NCBI RefSeq assembly: GCF_019931215.1
Contig: NZ_JAIOUB010000001.1
Span: 620,001 to 684,000 of the forward strand
Direction: 5' to 3'
DNA: 64,000 bases
From: Alcanivorax limicola
GTDB lineage: Bacteria; Pseudomonadota; Gammaproteobacteria; Pseudomonadales; Alcanivoracaceae
Below the pieces are notes generated by a model. That model had not been told where the DNA came from. It searched no databases and saw nothing but the letters and a program-made list of their open reading frames with translations. Position numbers and translations under genes: made by a program. Below, one piece after another: positions 6,706 to 55,631 of this stretch. How positions within the stretch are numbered: position 1 is the stretch's first letter; every line of letters starts with the position of its first letter.

Positions 6706-7323
6706 ATGCACCGACTGCTGATCATCCTGGCTGCCCTGCTGCCTCTGGCAGCCGGTGCCGGCCCGGCCACACAAAGCGACACTGCCGCCGACCCTGAACG
6801 TCCCCGGGTCGTCCTGGAAACCAGCAAAGGCACGATCGTCATTGCCCTGTTCCCGGACAAGGCGCCCCTGTCTGTGGCCAACTTTCTCCAGTACGTGGAT
6901 CACCAGTGGTATGACGATACGGTGTTTCACCGGGTCATCCCCGGGTTCATGATTCAGGGCGGTGGCTTTACCTCGGTGCACGCCAGCAAGGAAACCGCTG
7001 AACCGATCCGCAATGAGGCCGACAACGGCCTGCGCAACAGTCGTGGCACCGTCGCCTACGCCCGCACTGGCGACCCGCACTCAGCCACCAGCCAGTTCTT
7101 CATCAACACCGTGAATAACACCAGTCTGGATCACCGGAACAAGACACCGGCCGGCTGGGGTTACACCGTGTTTGGTGAAGTGATTGAAGGCATGGAAGAG
7201 GTCGTGGACGAGATCAGTGCCGTCCCCACAGGTGGCGCCATGCTGGGCGGCAGACCTGCGCCCAACGTGCCGAAAGAACGCGTCATCATCAAGAGCGCCC
7301 GCCGCCTGACGGACGCCCCATGA
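6706..7323 (+). CDS. periplasmic cyclophilin-type peptidyl-prolyl isomerase
   Basis: A 205-residue cyclophilin with an N-terminal signal sequence (MHRLLIILAALLPLAAGAGP) followed by a short acidic linker, so it is probably a periplasmic PpiA-type isomerase. The same signature blocks as in the preceding gene are present: FHRVIPGFMIQGGG, SATSQFFINT and WGYTVFGEV. The close match over the domain suggests the two arose by tandem duplication with gain of an export signal in one. The stop codon overlaps the lpxH start by 4 bp (ATGA), indicating translational coupling. Confidence 0.9.
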   Translation: MHRLLIILAALLPLAAGAGPATQSDTAADPERPRVVLETSKGTIVIALFPDKAPLSVANFLQYVDHQWYDDTVFHRVIPGFMIQGGGFTSVHASKETAEPIRNEADNGLRNSRGTVAYARTGDPHSATSQFFINTVNNTSLDHRNKTPAGWGYTVFGEVIEGMEEVVDEISAVPTGGAMLGGRPAPNVPKERVIIKSARRLTDAP

Positions 7324-47725: not shown

Positions 47726-48616
47726 TCAGGCGCGCGGCTCCTGAGGCCGCAGGCGCATCAACCCTTCCTGCGCCACCGTGGCCGCCAGCACGCCATCTGC
47801 ACGGTAGATGTAGCCCAGATTCATGCCACGGGCCCCGGAGGCCGAGGGGCTGAAGGTGCTGTAGAGCAGCCATTCATCAACCCGGAAAGGCCGATGAAAC
47901 CACATCGCGTGATCGATACTGGCAGACTGCACATGGGGCTGGAAGAAGTTCATGCCGTGGGGCAGCATCGAGGTCCCCAGCAGACCGAAGTCAGAGCAAA
48001 AAGCCAGCAGCGCCCGGTGAGTCGCCACATCCACGTCCAGCGTATCCGCAATGCGGAACCAGACCATGCGCGACGGGTCCTGGGGCTCGGCCTCGAAGGA
48101 GTTTTCCGGCTTGACCGGTCGAAATTCCACCGGTCGCTCGGCCAGAAACGCCTCACGGAAGTTCTCCGGTATCCGGTGCGCAATGCGCTCCCGCAACACA
48201 CGATCGGTTTCCAGTGTCTCCGGGGCCGGCACATCCGGCATGTCTGCCTGATGCTCGACACCGCCCTCTTCCAGCTGAAACGACGCTTCGAGGCTGAAGA
48301 TCGCCCGGCCGTGCTGAATCGCGGTAACGCGGCGGGTGGTAAAGCTCTTGCCATCCCGAATCCTGTCCACGTCATAGATGATCGGAATGTTGAAATCACC
48401 CGGACGCAGGAAATAGGAATGCAGGGAGTGGACTGGCCGGTCTTCTGGCACAGTGCGTGCCGCCGCCATCAGCGCCTGGCCCGCTACCAGTCCGCCAAAG
48501 ATGCTGCGCTGGCCGGTATTGCGGCTCTGCCCGCGGAACAGATTCTCTTCGAGCTGTTCCAGCCGGATGACTTCCAGCAGATCGCTGACTGTTTCTTTCG
48601 TAGCACGTTCTTTCAT
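47726..48616 (-). CDS. tesB: acyl-CoA thioesterase II
   Basis: TesB hydrolyses medium- and long-chain acyl-CoA in the cytosol. The 296-residue double-hotdog protein has the family start FRGQSRNTGQRSIFGGLVAGQAL, HSLHSYFLRPGD and the C-terminal active-site elements ASIDHAMWFHRPF, YSTFSPSASGARG and AATVAQEGLMR, corresponding to the Asp, Ser/Thr and Gln of E. coli TesB. ATG 48616 was chosen over an upstream TTG at 48643. It follows the papain-like gene by 65 bp on the same strand. Acyl-CoA turnover suits a lipid-degrading host. Confidence 0.93.
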   Translation of the reverse strand: MKERATKETVSDLLEVIRLEQLEENLFRGQSRNTGQRSIFGGLVAGQALMAAARTVPEDRPVHSLHSYFLRPGDFNIPIIYDVDRIRDGKSFTTRRVTAIQHGRAIFSLEASFQLEEGGVEHQADMPDVPAPETLETDRVLRERIAHRIPENFREAFLAERPVEFRPVKPENSFEAEPQDPSRMVWFRIADTLDVDVATHRALLAFCSDFGLLGTSMLPHGMNFFQPHVQSASIDHAMWFHRPFRVDEWLLYSTFSPSASGARGMNLGYIYRADGVLAATVAQEGLMRLRPQEPRA

Positions 48617-48681
48617 GACACGTTTCCCGGCATTCGCGCGCAATCAACAAGCCGCGCATCATACCATCTTTCCTGACGTCG

Positions 48682-50742
48682 TCATTGCGGTGTCGGCACA
48701 CCGTCCTCCGCCTGCAACGCCCCGGCGGGCAGTCTCGTCGCCCCCCAGCTGCGATGTACGTAGCCGATCACCCGATCCAGTTCCTCCTGGGAAACCTGGG
48801 CAGGTTCACCATACTCCAACGGATCGTAGTGAAAGATGTACAAGCGAGAAGCAAATTGCTCGAAGGGCAATGATGCCTCACCAAAGTGCTCGCCATTCCC
48901 GGCCGTCTTGACCACCACACCATCACCCCAGTCCTGCCCGCTGTCATTGTTGGGGTTGTAGAAATACGCACGCATATTGCCCGACGGATCCAGCGTGACG
49001 CGCAACAACGTAATAGCATGCCAACCGATAAAGCGCGCCGCGCTGTCGGTCACGGCAATACCGGCCGGCTGGGGATGAATCAACGGCTGGTTACCGTTGT
49101 AATAAGGGTGATACGCGGCATAGAAATGCCGCAGAAAGTCTTCCAGCTCGTGCAGCAGACCGGTAGCAACGTCAACATTGATACGAAAACCCCTGCCTGA
49201 CCACCAGCCATGGAACTCCGGATTGACCCAGCGATGCGGATCGCCCTCCCGGCCCAGGCAACGGCGCCCCATTTCTGCATAAATGCGGTCCAGGTGCGGC
49301 ACCACCAATAGCGATACGGGGTCCAGGTCCACGGGCACTTCCGTCGCCACGCCCCCCGCACTTTCCCGGGAAGAGATCGACTGCCCTTCGAAGTGCATGA
49401 TGATCTCGTCATCCCGCGCCGCCCAGGCCACCATTTGCAGCAGATAGTCGGGATCATTGCAGGCCCACATGGACAAGGCCCGGGCAGACTGGCAGGTCGG
49501 GTTGTTGCCCTGCCCCACCCCCAGCGGCAAGCCCATCATGCACAACACGCCCTCCAGCAAGCGGGAGGCCGGCGGCACGGCATCACCAAAGGTCCGCACC
49601 AGCCGCTGCTCGGCCGCCGCAGACAAGGGCAGTCGCAGCTGGCGCCACAGCGCTGGCGCGACCGGCGCCTGGTACAGAATGCCGCGTTCCAGCATCAACG
49701 CCAGGCCATATACTGCCTGCGCAGTATCCGGGTGAACCGCCGCATCGATCAGGGCATGCACCAGCTCCCGATAGCACAACAGACAGTCGCGACCGGTGGC
49801 CGACAAACCCAGACACTCAGCCAGCAAATGGTCGCTCTGTTCGGGCAAGTGACGCAGCATCATCGCGTGGTAAGGCGATACCAGACCGGTATCGTGCATC
49901 GCGCGCGCGAAGCCTGAGGCTTCATACTGCAACGCCGTGACATCCATGCTGTCCAGTCGGCGCTGGTACTCCTCCAGCCCTGGATCTTCCCGTGTCGCCT
50001 GGGTCGGGCCGTACAGGCTGCTGACCAGACGATCCGCCCCCTGGCCGCTGCCGCCCCAATTGATATCGCCGCTGCCCCGACAGACCGCAATCTGCGTGAT
50101 CATGTGCTTGACCATATCGACCTGAATCGGCCGCTGCTGCTGAATGCGCCAGATCTCGTCAATCAGTTGATCAATCACATGCTCATAGCCAATGGTCTCG
50201 GCCAGATAGCGAAACAGATTGCGCGGCACCTGGGCCAAGCGCCCCTGCTGGGCACGTTCAGCCTCGCCCGGCGGAGAGAACAGCATCTCCAGATTCAGCG
50301 CCAGAACCTGCGTCAGATAGTGGTGCGCCTGTTCGGAGGACATCAGCGGATGCAGAAACCAGGCCTGTGATACGGCAAGCAGGCGCAGCTCGCTGAGCGC
50401 TTCAATGACCACCAGATCCGCCTCGGCACTGCGCAAGGCGATACGACTCAGCGACGGGATCAGGATTTGCGGCGTTGCCCAATCAGATCCGGCAAACACA
50501 CCGGCCTGCTCTATGGCCTCGGCACGCGCGGCCACGGCAGCGCAGCCGCCATCCTGAAGCATCACCCGCCGGGCAGTGTCCAGCACGCGAGGCACCTTGC
50601 CCGGCTTGGCAAACGCCGGTGCACGGGCCATCACCGCCAGTGCCTCATCCAGCCTGACCAGCAGTGCATCCAGCTTCTGCGCTGCCTGCTCTGCTGCGTC
50701 GCGCGTCACGTCTGCGTCATCGGAATCCGTCACACCATTCAC
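48682..50742 (-). CDS. uncharacterised protein with papain-like Gln-Cys-His-Asn set
   Basis: I do not recognise a named family. The 686-residue protein has no signal peptide. Residues 1-400 look helical (for example 90-220). In the C-terminal part I see an arrangement like papain-fold cysteine hydrolases: Gln411 and Cys417 in GVGQGNNPTCQSARAL (papain has the same Q-x5-C spacing), His575 in FIGWHAITLLRV, and Asn596 in RAYFYNPNNDSG on the next strand. It could be a peptidase, a transglutaminase-like enzyme or an amidase. The upstream gene, 24 bp away, encodes an ATP-grasp ligase. The start is GTG 50742 or GTG 50733. Confidence 0.6.
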   Translation of the reverse strand: MNGVTDSDDADVTRDAAEQAAQKLDALLVRLDEALAVMARAPAFAKPGKVPRVLDTARRVMLQDGGCAAVAARAEAIEQAGVFAGSDWATPQILIPSLSRIALRSAEADLVVIEALSELRLLAVSQAWFLHPLMSSEQAHHYLTQVLALNLEMLFSPPGEAERAQQGRLAQVPRNLFRYLAETIGYEHVIDQLIDEIWRIQQQRPIQVDMVKHMITQIAVCRGSGDINWGGSGQGADRLVSSLYGPTQATREDPGLEEYQRRLDSMDVTALQYEASGFARAMHDTGLVSPYHAMMLRHLPEQSDHLLAECLGLSATGRDCLLCYRELVHALIDAAVHPDTAQAVYGLALMLERGILYQAPVAPALWRQLRLPLSAAAEQRLVRTFGDAVPPASRLLEGVLCMMGLPLGVGQGNNPTCQSARALSMWACNDPDYLLQMVAWAARDDEIIMHFEGQSISSRESAGGVATEVPVDLDPVSLLVVPHLDRIYAEMGRRCLGREGDPHRWVNPEFHGWWSGRGFRINVDVATGLLHELEDFLRHFYAAYHPYYNGNQPLIHPQPAGIAVTDSAARFIGWHAITLLRVTLDPSGNMRAYFYNPNNDSGQDWGDGVVVKTAGNGEHFGEASLPFEQFASRLYIFHYDPLEYGEPAQVSQEELDRVIGYVHRSWGATRLPAGALQAEDGVPTPQ

Positions 50743-50766
50743 CCTGGCTTTTCACACACTGAATTG

Positions 50767-51990
50767 TCACACATAGAAATCGAGATCTTCCTGATGCTTG
50801 AGCAACGTCTTCAGCGTATCGGAATCTTCACCGCGGAAATACATCAGGCCCCAATGGGTCCCGAATGCCGTGCGCTTGGTCACCGTTTCCTGTTGCGGCG
50901 GTGTCAGCTCATGGGATTCGAAATAGGGATGATCTTCCGTTTCAGCCGGAATCTCGAGACGGCTGACCACACGGCGGCGCGGGTACACACCAAAACAACC
51001 CGCATAGCCGTCAGCGTCCTCCACCTCTTTCGGGAAGAAACCGGTAATCTCTTCTTCCGTGGTCTTCGGATCGAATGACAGGATCAGTGCATGGTAGGCG
51101 TTAAAGCCATAGACCCGTTCCAGCAACTCGAACACCTTGAAGCCGGGCGGTCGGTAAGCCACTTCACCGAAATACATCTCGCTGTCACTGGTCACGAAAT
51201 ACTCGGGATGAATAAAGCCGAACTCGATATCAAAGGTTTTAACAAGTTTTTCAATCTGAGAGCGAATTTGCGGCCGATAACTCTCCAGTTCCGGCGACGC
51301 GGGTACAAAAACGGAATAGCCCAGCGACACATACTCGGAAATATTCAGAAAGCGAATCTTGCCATCATGGATCCAGGCCTCGACGGCAAACTCCCAACCA
51401 TCCAGATGTGACTCCATCAATGACGGGAATTCTTCATCGGGAATCGCGTCCACTTCGTCCGGTGTGCGAATCACGCGATGACCGAGGCAACCGGCTTTAT
51501 CAAACGCCTTGAGATGGATCGGATCGTTGGGATCGCCATCCAGCTTCAGCAGGGTCTGATTGACGCGCTTGAGAAAACGGATGACATCATCACGATCATG
51601 CGCTTCTTCGAAGATACCGACACGAATACCGCCCAGTTGTGCGCGGCGTTTCATCAGGGATTTGTCGCGCATCAGCATCGCCTGGCCCAGCAGACGCGGG
51701 TTATTCAGCAATGCCGAGTTGATTGCGCCAGCCCACTCCACCGTTTCCTCGAACAGCGGAATAGCAACATCAACGCCCATATCCTTGAGCGTCTGGGCAA
51801 TTTCCATGGAGCGATCATTGAGTCGCTCGAAATTCCAGGGGACATAGGGGATGTCGTGTTGCTGGCAATACTCTTCGGCCCAGTCGGGCGCGACGACGAC
51901 ATAGCGACGGTCGAAGGATTCGGCGGCTTCCACCGCATTGAGGCTCCAGCCCAGTAACGCGACAAAGCCCTTGTTCGGATCTTTCTTCAT
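50767..51990 (-). CDS. ATP-grasp domain ligase
   Basis: A 407-residue ATP-grasp enzyme, a fold that joins a carboxylate to an amine or thiol through an acyl-phosphate. Visible elements: N-terminal GFVALLGWSLNAVEA Rossmann-like start, the ATP loop IHLKAFDKAGCLGHRVI, EFAVEAWIHDGKIRFLNISEYV and the metal site FGFIHPEYFVTSDSEMYFGEVAYRPPG. The pattern resembles amino-acid ligase-like ATP-grasp proteins. ATG 51990 has GGAGG 8 nt upstream. The substrate is unknown. It is divergent from mfd and heads a leftward group with the papain-like gene, tesB and the glycosylase gene. Confidence 0.8.
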   Translation of the reverse strand: MKKDPNKGFVALLGWSLNAVEAAESFDRRYVVVAPDWAEEYCQQHDIPYVPWNFERLNDRSMEIAQTLKDMGVDVAIPLFEETVEWAGAINSALLNNPRLLGQAMLMRDKSLMKRRAQLGGIRVGIFEEAHDRDDVIRFLKRVNQTLLKLDGDPNDPIHLKAFDKAGCLGHRVIRTPDEVDAIPDEEFPSLMESHLDGWEFAVEAWIHDGKIRFLNISEYVSLGYSVFVPASPELESYRPQIRSQIEKLVKTFDIEFGFIHPEYFVTSDSEMYFGEVAYRPPGFKVFELLERVYGFNAYHALILSFDPKTTEEEITGFFPKEVEDADGYAGCFGVYPRRRVVSRLEIPAETEDHPYFESHELTPPQQETVTKRTAFGTHWGLMYFRGEDSDTLKTLLKHQEDLDFYV

Positions 51991-52187
51991 AATGCTGCCT
52001 CCATTACGTTGGCAGTGCATTGCTCGCCAGCGTTGAGACCAGCGAGGCCGTCAAGAGCGTAGACACCATACACTAGTCACGCAGTGACCACACCCCGCCC
52101 CCCAATCTGACAACCCACAAACTGGCGCTTTCACGGCTGGTTTCCGCTACAATGCGGCTCCCTTGATTCAGATAATTTCATCAGCCA

Positions 52188-55100
52188 ATGACGCTTCTTC
52201 CCTCCGCAGAGATGTTCCCCACCGGACCGGACCGGTTCCGTAACTGGCCAGGCCTGGACAGCGGCAGTCTGGCGGTTACGCTTGCGGCACTGGCGCAGCG
52301 CGAAACACAGCTTCTGCTGGTCATCACGCCGGACAGCAGTGCCGCGCAACAACTGGCGGACAGCCTCGCGTTCTATCTCGACGGCAGCGATGTGCCGGTG
52401 ATGCTGTTCCCGGACTGGGAGACCCTGCCCTATGACCTGTTCTCGCCCCACCAGGACATCATCAGCGAGCGGATAGAAGTGCTGCATCGGCTGCCTGAAA
52501 GTCGTCGCGGCGTGCTCATCGCCCCGGTCAATACCGTCATGCAACGGCTGGCGCCGCGCATGCAGATCAGCGGCAGCAGCTTTGCCTTGCAAGTGGGTGA
52601 GCGCTTTGACATGGACGCCACCCGTTCACGCCTGGCGGCCTGCGGCTATCGCCAGCGCGACAGCGTTTATGAGCACGGTGAATTCGCCGTGCGCGGTGCC
52701 ATCATGGATATCTTTCCCATGGGCACTCGCCAACCGTTTCGCGTCGAGCTGTTCGACGACGACATCGAGTCATTGCGCCTGTTTGACGCAGAGACGCAGC
52801 GCTCGGTGGATCAGGTCCAACAGATCACCCTGCTGCCCGCCGCTGAATACCCGCTCAGCAGCGACGGGATCGCCCATTTCCGCAATCGCTTTCGCGAGCG
52901 CTTTGATGTGGATCACCGGCAGTGCAGCCTTTACCAGGATGTGTCCGACGGCATTGCCAGCCCGGGGCTCGAGTATTATCTGCCATTGTTTTTCGATGAG
53001 ATGGCTACGCTGTTTGATTATTTGCCCGCAGCGGTGCGCCTGGTCGAACTGTCGGGCTGCGACGCGGCAGCAGAGCATTTCTGGCAAGAGGTCAACACAC
53101 GCCATGAAGACCGGCGCCATGACATCCGTCGGCCGATTCTGGCGCCAGCGGAGCTGTTCCTGCCCGTGGACGAGCTCAACCGCCACTTGCGCAGCCATCC
53201 CCGGGCGCGCCTGACCCCCGGCACAGACACGCAGGACGGCGTCAGCTTCGGCTTTACCCCGCCACCACAGCCTCCGAGTGACCGCATCGCCAACCCGTTC
53301 GCCTCGCTGATCGCGCTGCCCGCGCAGCACCCCGGCTTGCGCGTGCTGATCTGCGCAGAGACGCCCGGGCGTCGAGAGGCTCTGCTGGAATTGATGCAGA
53401 AACAGGGCCTGCAGCCTGAACTGGTGGAGGGCTGGCAAGGGTTCCTCGATGGCAGTGCGCCCTGGTCACTGACCGTGGGCGAGCTGGATCAGGGTTTCTG
53501 GGCGCCCGAGGCCGGCTATCTGGTGATCGCGGAAAGCCAGCTCTATGGCGAGCGGATCATGCAGCGCCGACGCCGCAAAGGCGGTCAGGAGACGACCGCC
53601 GATCAGGCCTTCCGCTCACTCGGCGAGCTGGTATCCGGCTCACCGGTGGTGCATATCGACCATGGCGTCGGCCGCTATCGCGGGCTGACCCACATGACGG
53701 TGGACGGCCAGGCCCACGAATTTCTGCTGCTGGAATACGCAGGTGGCGACAAGATTTACCTGCCCGTGTCGAATCTTCATCTCATCAGCCGCTACGGCGG
53801 CGGAGACCCGGAACACGCGCCACTGACGCGCCTGGGCTCGGATCAATGGGGCCGGGCCCGCCAGCGGGCCGCCGAGAAGATTCATGACGTGGCCGCCGAG
53901 CTGCTGAATACCTACGCCCGCCGCGAGGCACGTGAAGGACGCGCCTTCACCGTGCCGGAAGACGACTACAATCGCTTCGCCAGCGGCTTCCCGTTCGAGG
54001 AAACCGCCGACCAGCAGGCGGCGATCAATGCCGTGCTCAGCGATATGCAGGCGAACCGCCCCACCGACCGGCTGGTGTGCGGCGATGTCGGCTTCGGCAA
54101 GACCGAAGTGGCCATGCGCGCAGCGTTTGTCGCCGTGCAGAACAATACTCAGGTCGCCATTCTGGTGCCCACTACCCTGCTCGCCCAGCAGCACTATGAG
54201 TCCTTCAGTGACCGCTTTGCCGACTGGCCCGTGCACATCGAAGTGCTGAGCCGCTTCCGCAGCCAGAAGGAAAAGACCGACGTCCTGCGACGCCTGGAGG
54301 CCGGCACCGTGGATATCGTGGTCGGCACGCATCAATTGCTGCAGGAGTCAGTCACATTCCGTGATCTGGGTCTGGTGATCGTCGATGAGGAGCACCGCTT
54401 CGGGGTGCGCCACAAGGAGCGCCTGAAAGAGCTGCGCGCCGAGGCCGATATTCTCACCCTCACCGCCACGCCGATTCCACGCACCCTGAACATGGCCATG
54501 TCCGGCATGCGCGACATCTCCATCATCGCCACGCCGCCGGAAAAGCGCCTGTCGGTCAAAACCTTTGTGCAGCAGAAAAATCCCATTGCCATCAAGGAAG
54601 CGATCCTGCGCGAGCTGCTGCGCGGCGGTCAGGTCTACTTCCTGCACAACGACATCGACAGCATGGCGCGCTCGGCCGAGGAGATTCGTGAGCTGGTCCC
54701 CGATGCCCGGGTCGGCATTGCTCACGGGCAGATGCGCGAGCGGGATCTCGAGCAGATCATGTCCGACTTTTACCACCGGCGCTTCAACGTGCTGTTGTGT
54801 ACCACCATTATCGAAACCGGTATCGACGTGCCCTCCGCCAATACCATTATCATCGAGCGGGCCGACAAATTCGGCCTGGCGCAGCTGCACCAGCTGCGCG
54901 GCCGCGTCGGCCGTTCCCATCACCAGGCCTATGCCTTCCTGCTGACGCCCCACCCGAAGGCCATGACGCGGGATGCGGTGAAACGCCTGGAAGCCATCGA
55001 GCAAGCCTCGGATCTGGGCGCCGGCTTCATGCTCGCGAGTCACGATCTGGAGATTCGCGGTGCCGGTGCCTTGCTGGGCGACGAGCAGCACGGGCATATC

Positions 55101-55631
55101 GAGTCCATCGGCTTTTCCCTGTACATGGAGATGCTCGAACAGGCCGTGGAGGCGCTCAAGCGCGGCGAACAACCCGATACCGCCAAACCGCTTTCCGGCG
55201 GCCCGGACATCAACCTGCGTGTTCCGGCGCTGATCCCCGAGGATTACCTGCCGGACGTCTTTACCCGGCTTGGTCTGTACAAGCGCATTGCCAGCTGCCG
55301 CACCGGTGAACAACTGGATGAACTCAAGGTCGAAATGATCGACCGCTTCGGCATGCTGCCCCGGCAGGTCAAGAACCTGTTCCGGGTTACCGCCTTGCGG
55401 CAGCGCGCCGAGGCGCTGGGCATCAGCCGTGTGGATGCCGGCAGCGAAAGCGGTCGGCTGGAATTCTCCGAGCGCACGGCGATTGATCCGCTGCGCCTCG
55501 TGAAGCTGGTACAATCAGGCCCGAACCGCTACCGCCTGCAGGGCGCCAGCATGCTGCGCTTTACCCTGGAAGCCGATACCGAGGAAGAACGCTTCGTCGC
55601 AGTGGAAAGCCTGCTGGATAACTTGACCTGA
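52188..55631 (+). CDS. mfd: transcription-repair coupling factor
   Basis: Mfd removes stalled RNA polymerase at DNA lesions and recruits UvrA. The 1147-residue protein is full length: UvrB-homology region (about 1-340), RNA-polymerase interaction domain (about 490-570), translocase domains with Walker A GDVGFGKT at 632-639 and the DEEH box at 733-736, VVGTHQLLQ, the TRG-like GRVGRSHHQAYAFLLTP and the C-terminal regulatory domain. A TACAAT at 52148-52153 may be its -10 box. csiV starts 13 bp after its stop. Confidence 0.98.
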   Translation: MTLLPSAEMFPTGPDRFRNWPGLDSGSLAVTLAALAQRETQLLLVITPDSSAAQQLADSLAFYLDGSDVPVMLFPDWETLPYDLFSPHQDIISERIEVLHRLPESRRGVLIAPVNTVMQRLAPRMQISGSSFALQVGERFDMDATRSRLAACGYRQRDSVYEHGEFAVRGAIMDIFPMGTRQPFRVELFDDDIESLRLFDAETQRSVDQVQQITLLPAAEYPLSSDGIAHFRNRFRERFDVDHRQCSLYQDVSDGIASPGLEYYLPLFFDEMATLFDYLPAAVRLVELSGCDAAAEHFWQEVNTRHEDRRHDIRRPILAPAELFLPVDELNRHLRSHPRARLTPGTDTQDGVSFGFTPPPQPPSDRIANPFASLIALPAQHPGLRVLICAETPGRREALLELMQKQGLQPELVEGWQGFLDGSAPWSLTVGELDQGFWAPEAGYLVIAESQLYGERIMQRRRRKGGQETTADQAFRSLGELVSGSPVVHIDHGVGRYRGLTHMTVDGQAHEFLLLEYAGGDKIYLPVSNLHLISRYGGGDPEHAPLTRLGSDQWGRARQRAAEKIHDVAAELLNTYARREAREGRAFTVPEDDYNRFASGFPFEETADQQAAINAVLSDMQANRPTDRLVCGDVGFGKTEVAMRAAFVAVQNNTQVAILVPTTLLAQQHYESFSDRFADWPVHIEVLSRFRSQKEKTDVLRRLEAGTVDIVVGTHQLLQESVTFRDLGLVIVDEEHRFGVRHKERLKELRAEADILTLTATPIPRTLNMAMSGMRDISIIATPPEKRLSVKTFVQQKNPIAIKEAILRELLRGGQVYFLHNDIDSMARSAEEIRELVPDARVGIAHGQMRERDLEQIMSDFYHRRFNVLLCTTIIETGIDVPSANTIIIERADKFGLAQLHQLRGRVGRSHHQAYAFLLTPHPKAMTRDAVKRLEAIEQASDLGAGFMLASHDLEIRGAGALLGDEQHGHIESIGFSLYMEMLEQAVEALKRGEQPDTAKPLSGGPDINLRVPALIPEDYLPDVFTRLGLYKRIASCRTGEQLDELKVEMIDRFGMLPRQVKNLFRVTALRQRAEALGISRVDAGSESGRLEFSERTAIDPLRLVKLVQSGPNRYRLQGASMLRFTLEADTEEERFVAVESLLDNLT

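Follow-up and report, generated by a model that had tools for sequence, protein, structure and literature searches.

What do two adjacent genes do when one encodes a putative amide-forming ligase and the other a protein that matches no family? The question is raised by a 64,000-nt stretch of Alcanivorax limicola DNA (GCF_019931215.1, contig NZ_JAIOUB010000001.1, positions 620,001-684,000 of the forward strand), which was analysed as a whole and is referred to here as the window. On its minus strand, the gene of a candidate ATP-grasp ligase is followed closely by that of a 686-residue protein, hereafter the large protein. The original prediction had described these neighbours as lying 24 bp apart on one strand, which is borne out by the open reading frame coordinates, and had proposed that the large protein is papain-like and that the pair makes and cuts, or makes and transfers, an amide-linked molecule.

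50767..52020, minus strand: ATP-grasp carboxylate-amine ligase candidate, 417 aa (open reading frame, profile, homologues)
50743..50766, minus strand: intergenic gap of 24 bp, consistent with a single transcript (open reading frame coordinates)
48682..50742, minus strand: large protein, orphan papain-like candidate, 686 aa, GTG start (open reading frame; 121 copies aligned; predicted model)
Within the large protein, minus strand: predicted N-terminal helical region, residues ~1-404, then a C-terminal mixed alpha/beta part with invariant Gln, Cys, His and Asn (model, alignment)

Co-occurrence of the ligase and the large protein

In a sample of 94 related genomes, each of the two genes was matched in 25. 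Two weak matches were set aside before counting, a 105-aa stretch with two stops for the large protein (G045) and a ligase match with an expectation value (E) of 1.3e-4 (G091), after which the identical 24 genomes hold both genes. The remaining 70 have neither, apart from one weak partial match per gene. In a class-level sample (n=369, sharing at least four genomes with the related sample) pair status was defined by the ligase, and nine of 22 ligase matches, all weaker than 1e-25, were treated as negative; 12 of the 13 positive genomes then showed the large protein adjoining or one gene off. Across a phylum-level sample the large protein was found in 11 of 398 genomes, one of which (G108) lies outside the window's class and has the ligase gene adjoining. 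Scoring in the class and phylum samples was limited to the 3 to 5 top candidates of each genome, so that misses are possible.

A pattern scan of GTDB genomes returned at least 586 stretches that encode relatives of the large protein, itself without a match to any family model searched, and the best 80 of these were analysed as loci. They belong mainly to Halomonas, Vreelandella and Billgrantia, and also to Marinobacter, Haliea, Guyparkeria, Marinimicrobium, Halopseudomonas and others, most of which we take to be marine or halophilic genera. In 72 of the 80 loci the large-protein gene is immediately preceded by a full-length ligase gene of the same orientation, at a spacing that ranges from a slight overlap to about 270 bp, with gene starts in homologue loci assigned by a fixed rule. 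As for the others, the upstream ligase gene is cut by the contig end in L109, and the first copy in L128 lacks an adjoining ligase, a second pair being located ~7.5 kb away. The adjoining ligase is gone or in fragments in L072, L113, L120, L122, L133 and L137, with remnants directly upstream of the large-protein gene in four of these six (L120, L122, L133, L137), and an intact ligase gene is present elsewhere in the genome in all six.

The pair is kept even where its orientation has changed, being convergent in L027, L267 and L269 and head to head in L031 and in eight loci from a single genus (L015-L019, L021-L023). None of the genomes checked, which include five of the 11 from the phylum sample, has the large protein without a ligase gene somewhere in the genome. 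The co-occurrence expected by the original prediction is thus nearly complete (the same 24 of 94 relatives, 72 of 80 loci, 6/6 with the ligase elsewhere), and the pairing of ligase and large protein is strong and well supported.

Two genomes show further forms of the large protein. Five full copies, 52-74% identical to the window copy, are found in G064 together with one fragment and two ligase genes (L010, L273-L276). The stretch set aside in G045 (L192, about 6803-7111) encodes 105 residues ~30% identical to residues 217-321 of the large protein, with two in-frame stops, and is possibly a remnant or a chance match.

The large protein as a candidate papain-type enzyme

The large protein gave no meaningful match in Pfam, NCBIfam, PHROGs or PADLOC, and its earlier description as unrecognised holds for the libraries searched. 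A chance reading frame is ruled out by conservation across 121 copies; the stops flagged inside some related matches sit at the match ends and are ordinary gene ends. The residues on which the papain-like assignment is built are as follows:

49510..49512, minus strand: Gln411 codon, candidate oxyanion-hole residue, invariant 121/121
49492..49494, minus strand: Cys417 codon, candidate nucleophile, six residues past Gln411, invariant 121/121; model helix 418-429 follows
49018..49020, minus strand: His575 codon, candidate catalytic histidine, invariant 121/121; in model strand 571-584
48955..48957, minus strand: Asn596 codon, candidate third catalytic residue, invariant 121/121; after model strand 590-595

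The Gln411-x5-Cys417 motif, His575 and Asn596 are found at the residues originally claimed. All four are invariant in 29/29 copies from related genomes and, with GTDB and distant copies included, in all 121 distinct copies, the most divergent of which are 40-49% identical. Cys417, whose loss in homologues would have spoken against the proposal, is kept throughout and is the sole invariant cysteine among the nine of the window protein. Gln, Cys, His and Asn/Asp are thus conserved in the order that characterizes the papain family, and the spacing from Gln411 to Cys417 equals that from Gln19 to Cys25 in papain.

A predicted structure model starts with a helical region of ~400 residues, mostly of high confidence, in line with the helical region proposed to precede the candidate site. 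In the model, a helix begins at residue 418 just past Cys417, His575 is located in a strand (571-584) and Asn596 just past the next one (590-595), with a predicted local distance difference test (pLDDT) score below 50 at residues 406-417 and 553-576. Papain enzymes show the same order of elements, that is, a helix after Cys, His in a strand and Asn after the following strand. Because the order in the model equals that of papain enzymes, the papain-like label is a good inference, plausible though unproven, and we consider it probable that the large protein is papain-type in its chemistry.

Searches for relatives by fold or profile gave no further assignment. Foldseek with the model, which is weak, returned no hit at E<=0.001 among PDB and viral models, and no PDB sequence was matched, even at E 10, by a profile built from the C-terminal part of 20 diverse copies. 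Neither CHAP nor any peptidase family of Pfam matched the large protein. In hhalign comparisons with DUF3335, C39_2 and BtrH_N, probabilities were below 1%, like those of unrelated controls, at shallow alignments with an effective number of sequences (Neff) of about 2. The positive controls reached 99.8% (DUF3335 against C39_2) and 84.2% (C39_2 against BtrH_N), and only 4.0% for DUF3335 against BtrH_N, so that the test can miss true relatives. A phmmer match against PDB to 4n69, a serine acetyltransferase (E 0.0011, residues 329-410), was lost with a 21-copy profile and judged to be chance. Of the papain-type claim, residue order, spacing and invariance therefore stood, and a fold, profile or sequence match to papain-like families did not emerge.

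This absence of a match would also fit a protein that is not papain-type, in which Cys417 has a structural role or binds a metal, while His503, His545, His638, Asp501 and Asp600 form another active site. Several further His, Asp and Asn residues, including Asp600, are indeed as invariant in the alignment as the four candidates. However, an invariant glutamine stands six positions ahead of the only invariant cysteine, the exact spacing of papain, and the model, at low confidence there, places Cys, His and Asn at the secondary-structure positions expected of a papain enzyme. We therefore regard a non-papain active site as unlikely.

A third component and the proposed module

The ligase matches Pfam ATP-grasp_4 (PF13535) at E 6.8e-4 and 19.7 bits, under the curated cut-off of 27, and the nearest solved sequences to its profile are the L-amino acid ligases 3vot (BL00235; E 0.0023) and 4wd3 (E 0.0028). 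This similarity extends over only ~120 residues, within which the aligned Glu, Glu and Arg agree. Lys159, Glu273, Glu286 and Arg290 are invariant in 25/25 ligases of an alignment that includes one distant relative, and we take them to be the ATP and metal residues from the roles usual in the family and the alignment with 3vot. The putative ATP and metal residues are thus kept, in line with the intact site that had been claimed. In the 73 GTDB loci with both genes, ligase sequences differ less from one another than those of the large protein (mean pairwise distance 0.13 versus 0.22).

A third gene, encoding a protein similar to histone deacetylases (HDAC), is linked to the pair in part of the genomes. 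The protein has a full PF00850 match (E 3.4e-90), and in the 94 relatives it defines a subfamily of 12 genomes with at least 326 bits, followed by a gap down to 219 bits. This subfamily is present in 11 of 24 pair-positive and one of 70 pair-negative relatives (Fisher 4e-7, kinship uncorrected); in the class sample, at least 320 bits were reached in 11 of 13 ligase-positive genomes versus 0 of 356 others (Fisher 2e-19, kinship uncorrected). The gene adjoins the pair in G008, G024, G032, G038, G011, G664, G741 and G825, and lies inside the cluster in G664, G741 and G825, in three differing gene orders. In G040 it adjoins only the large-protein gene, the ligase being on another contig, and in L086 a partial member stands beside the pair at a contig end. 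Elsewhere it is unlinked to the pair, and its neighbours are shared only among close relatives. Six of the 80 GTDB loci have weaker HDAC paralogues, 33-38% identical and several kb off, which were not counted. One HDAC-like subfamily is thus statistically tied to the pair. The original idea of a two-gene system stands for the pairing and is incomplete as to this subfamily, which the window's genome lacks; in many other lineages the system apparently includes a third member that is not encoded in the window.

From these gene associations and invariant residues, we posit a cytosolic amide-metabolism module, to which we assign a probability of roughly 0.4. The ATP-grasp protein, judged by its family and its likeness to L-amino acid ligases, would activate a carboxylate with ATP and couple it to an amine. 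The large protein, given its residues and element order, would act as a papain-type cysteine enzyme that attacks this amide or a related one, with either hydrolysis or passage of the acyl group to another amine as the outcome; its helical region may bind the substrate or a partner. In many lineages the associated HDAC-like enzyme, presumably a zinc deacylase, might then strip an acyl group from the amine of the same compound family and so unmask it. The window's genome lacks an HDAC-like match, and therefore the module would take a two-gene form there. As for the compound, a conjugate of a small amine or diamino acid is likelier than a protein.

Closeness to particular HDAC relatives bears on this choice of substrate. 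Among solved structures compared by single domains, the HDAC-like protein is closest to 5ji5 and to HDAC-like amidohydrolases such as 1zz0 (E 1e-61 to 2e-59), which rank above single HDAC6 domains (about 1e-49); the value of 1e-99 for long HDAC6 chains sums two domains. Polyamine deacetylases match it as well. Its His-His, Asp/His, Asp and Tyr positions, which we assume to be the zinc and catalytic residues, are invariant 20/20. The pair-tracking subfamily differs from the HDAC-like amidohydrolases, to which the third component alone can be compared, in being separate and in its absence from the window's genome. Were the module instead a protein-tagging system, the ligase would couple single amino acids or short peptides to the lysines of proteins, from which the cysteine and HDAC-like enzymes would remove them. 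The HDAC family does include protein lysine deacetylases, and the large helical region could bind a protein. Yet the ranking above and the polyamine deacetylase matches speak against this, the ligase resembles L-amino acid ligases, and in the loci compared the pair has no conserved neighbour that would qualify as a target protein. Protein tagging thus appears quite improbable.

Several observations weigh against the amide-metabolism module. No link by fold, profile or sequence connects the large protein with a papain-like family, and with pLDDT below 50 the modelled active site is unreliable; the ligase model is poor (mean pLDDT 50.9). In G767 a ligase gene is present but no large protein occurs up to about 16 kb to either side of it, and a second ligase gene stands alone in G140. 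The HDAC-like subfamily is unmatched in the window's genome and in 13 of 24 pair-positive relatives. It is also present in genomes that lack the pair, namely G043 and, at a lower score of 269 bits, G697, and within 10 kb of the pair it is represented in the 80 GTDB loci by the partial member in L086 only.

A weak hint as to the compound comes from ectoine synthase genes (ectC), located directly downstream of the module and on its strand in two lineages, in the orders ligase, large protein, ectC (G047) and large protein, HDAC-like gene, ligase, ectC (G741):

L279, 3851-4189, module's strand: ectoine synthase gene downstream of the module
L268, 4997-5437, module's strand: ectoine synthase gene downstream of the module

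This would suit an osmolyte pathway, in which an amide osmolyte or a diamino-acid conjugate related to ectoine is produced or recycled by the module, as would the presumably marine or halophilic genera of most of the best 80 GTDB copies. Above the cut-off, ectC was present in 24/24 pair-positive relatives versus 44/70 negatives. However, ectC is universal among the 46 sampled members of the window's family, and therefore only the contrast outside it is informative (4/4 versus 18/44). Among loci with flanks of 1.5 to 10 kb, a further ectC was found only in L119, ~9.6 kb from the large-protein gene. The contigs of G047 and G741, moreover, end soon past ectC, which may be solitary there or belong to an ectABC operon. 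PMC5924519 treats the function of solitary ectC genes as unresolved and describes ectoine synthesis and breakdown as running via acetylated diaminobutyrate. Acetylated diaminobutyrate is the kind of compound that the HDAC-like enzyme might deacylate. Taken together, we consider an osmolyte pathway unlikely.

The proposed amide-metabolism module has analogues among known systems, two of which were compared by profile (DUF3335 and BtrH_N). RimK-type ATP-grasp ligases are paired with the papain-like peptidase DUF3335 (GNAT plus C39-like peptidase, PF11814), a pairing similar to ours, whereas the large protein is not DUF3335 and shows no profile similarity to it. Glutathionylspermidine synthetase/amidase makes and cuts one amide, by way of an ATP-grasp synthetase and a papain-like amidase of the CHAP type; there the two are fused in one protein, and here the genes are separate and a CHAP match is lacking. 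In butirosin biosynthesis, the ATP-grasp ligase BtrJ acts with the papain-like acyltransferase BtrH (BtrH_N, PF14399), to which the large protein has no profile similarity; here, no third gene beside the pair is common to most of our loci. By analogy, these systems may illustrate how an amide could be made and then cut or transferred. DUF3335 is discussed in PMC10318531. A DUF3335 protein is also encoded in the window's genome, outside the window (G000:C1:1006572-1007186), and in 58 of the 94 relatives.

We found no paper recognizable by title or abstract as describing this pair. Tentatively, it may represent an undescribed three-enzyme pathway of marine and halophilic proteobacteria, in which an amide ligase, a new papain-like family and an HDAC-like deacylase make, transfer and unmask an amine conjugate. 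If true, one subfamily of the HDAC-like enzymes of bacteria would thereby gain a role in the cell; to our knowledge, few such roles are known for bacterial HDAC homologues. The tight tie to the ligase and the statistical tie to the HDAC-like subfamily make the function testable.

Surroundings of the pair

The pair is flanked in the window by the following genes:

52188-55631, plus strand: mfd (Pfam naming)
47726-48643, minus strand: acyl-CoA thioesterase gene, adjoining the pair (Pfam naming)

The gene mfd falls outside every neighbour family common to at least three of 33 compared loci. The commonest extra neighbour family was seen in 16 of 32 selected loci (10-kb flanks), chiefly in Halomonas and close kin, and in eight of 33 loci of a second comparison; no third gene is therefore fixed beside the pair.

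Three kinds of mobile or defensive context were considered and rejected. Neither protein had a confirmed relative in pattern scans of viral contigs, and the large protein was unmatched in phage records, which argues against phage cargo. Regarding plasmid cargo, one 1.8-Mb Halomonas plasmid record holds both genes, and other plasmid matches to the ligase are less than 60% identical. A defence system was dismissed, as PADLOC gave no match for the large protein.

Distant relatives of the ligase occur in G601, G559, G778, G589, G562 and G091, where tblastn detected no large protein in the stretches examined. The one in G778 is located near what we take, from reading the open reading frames, to be an Anbu-like cluster (ligase relative and cluster together: L189, 4790-5938 and 6275-10610). 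Many homologues of the window ligase itself begin, by the fixed rule, near Met11, which corresponds to position 51990, where the original prediction had ended its region. Downstream of the pair, a uracil-DNA glycosylase superfamily gene (PF03167, 47136-47873) overlaps the thioesterase gene (47726-48643) when the first start codons are taken.

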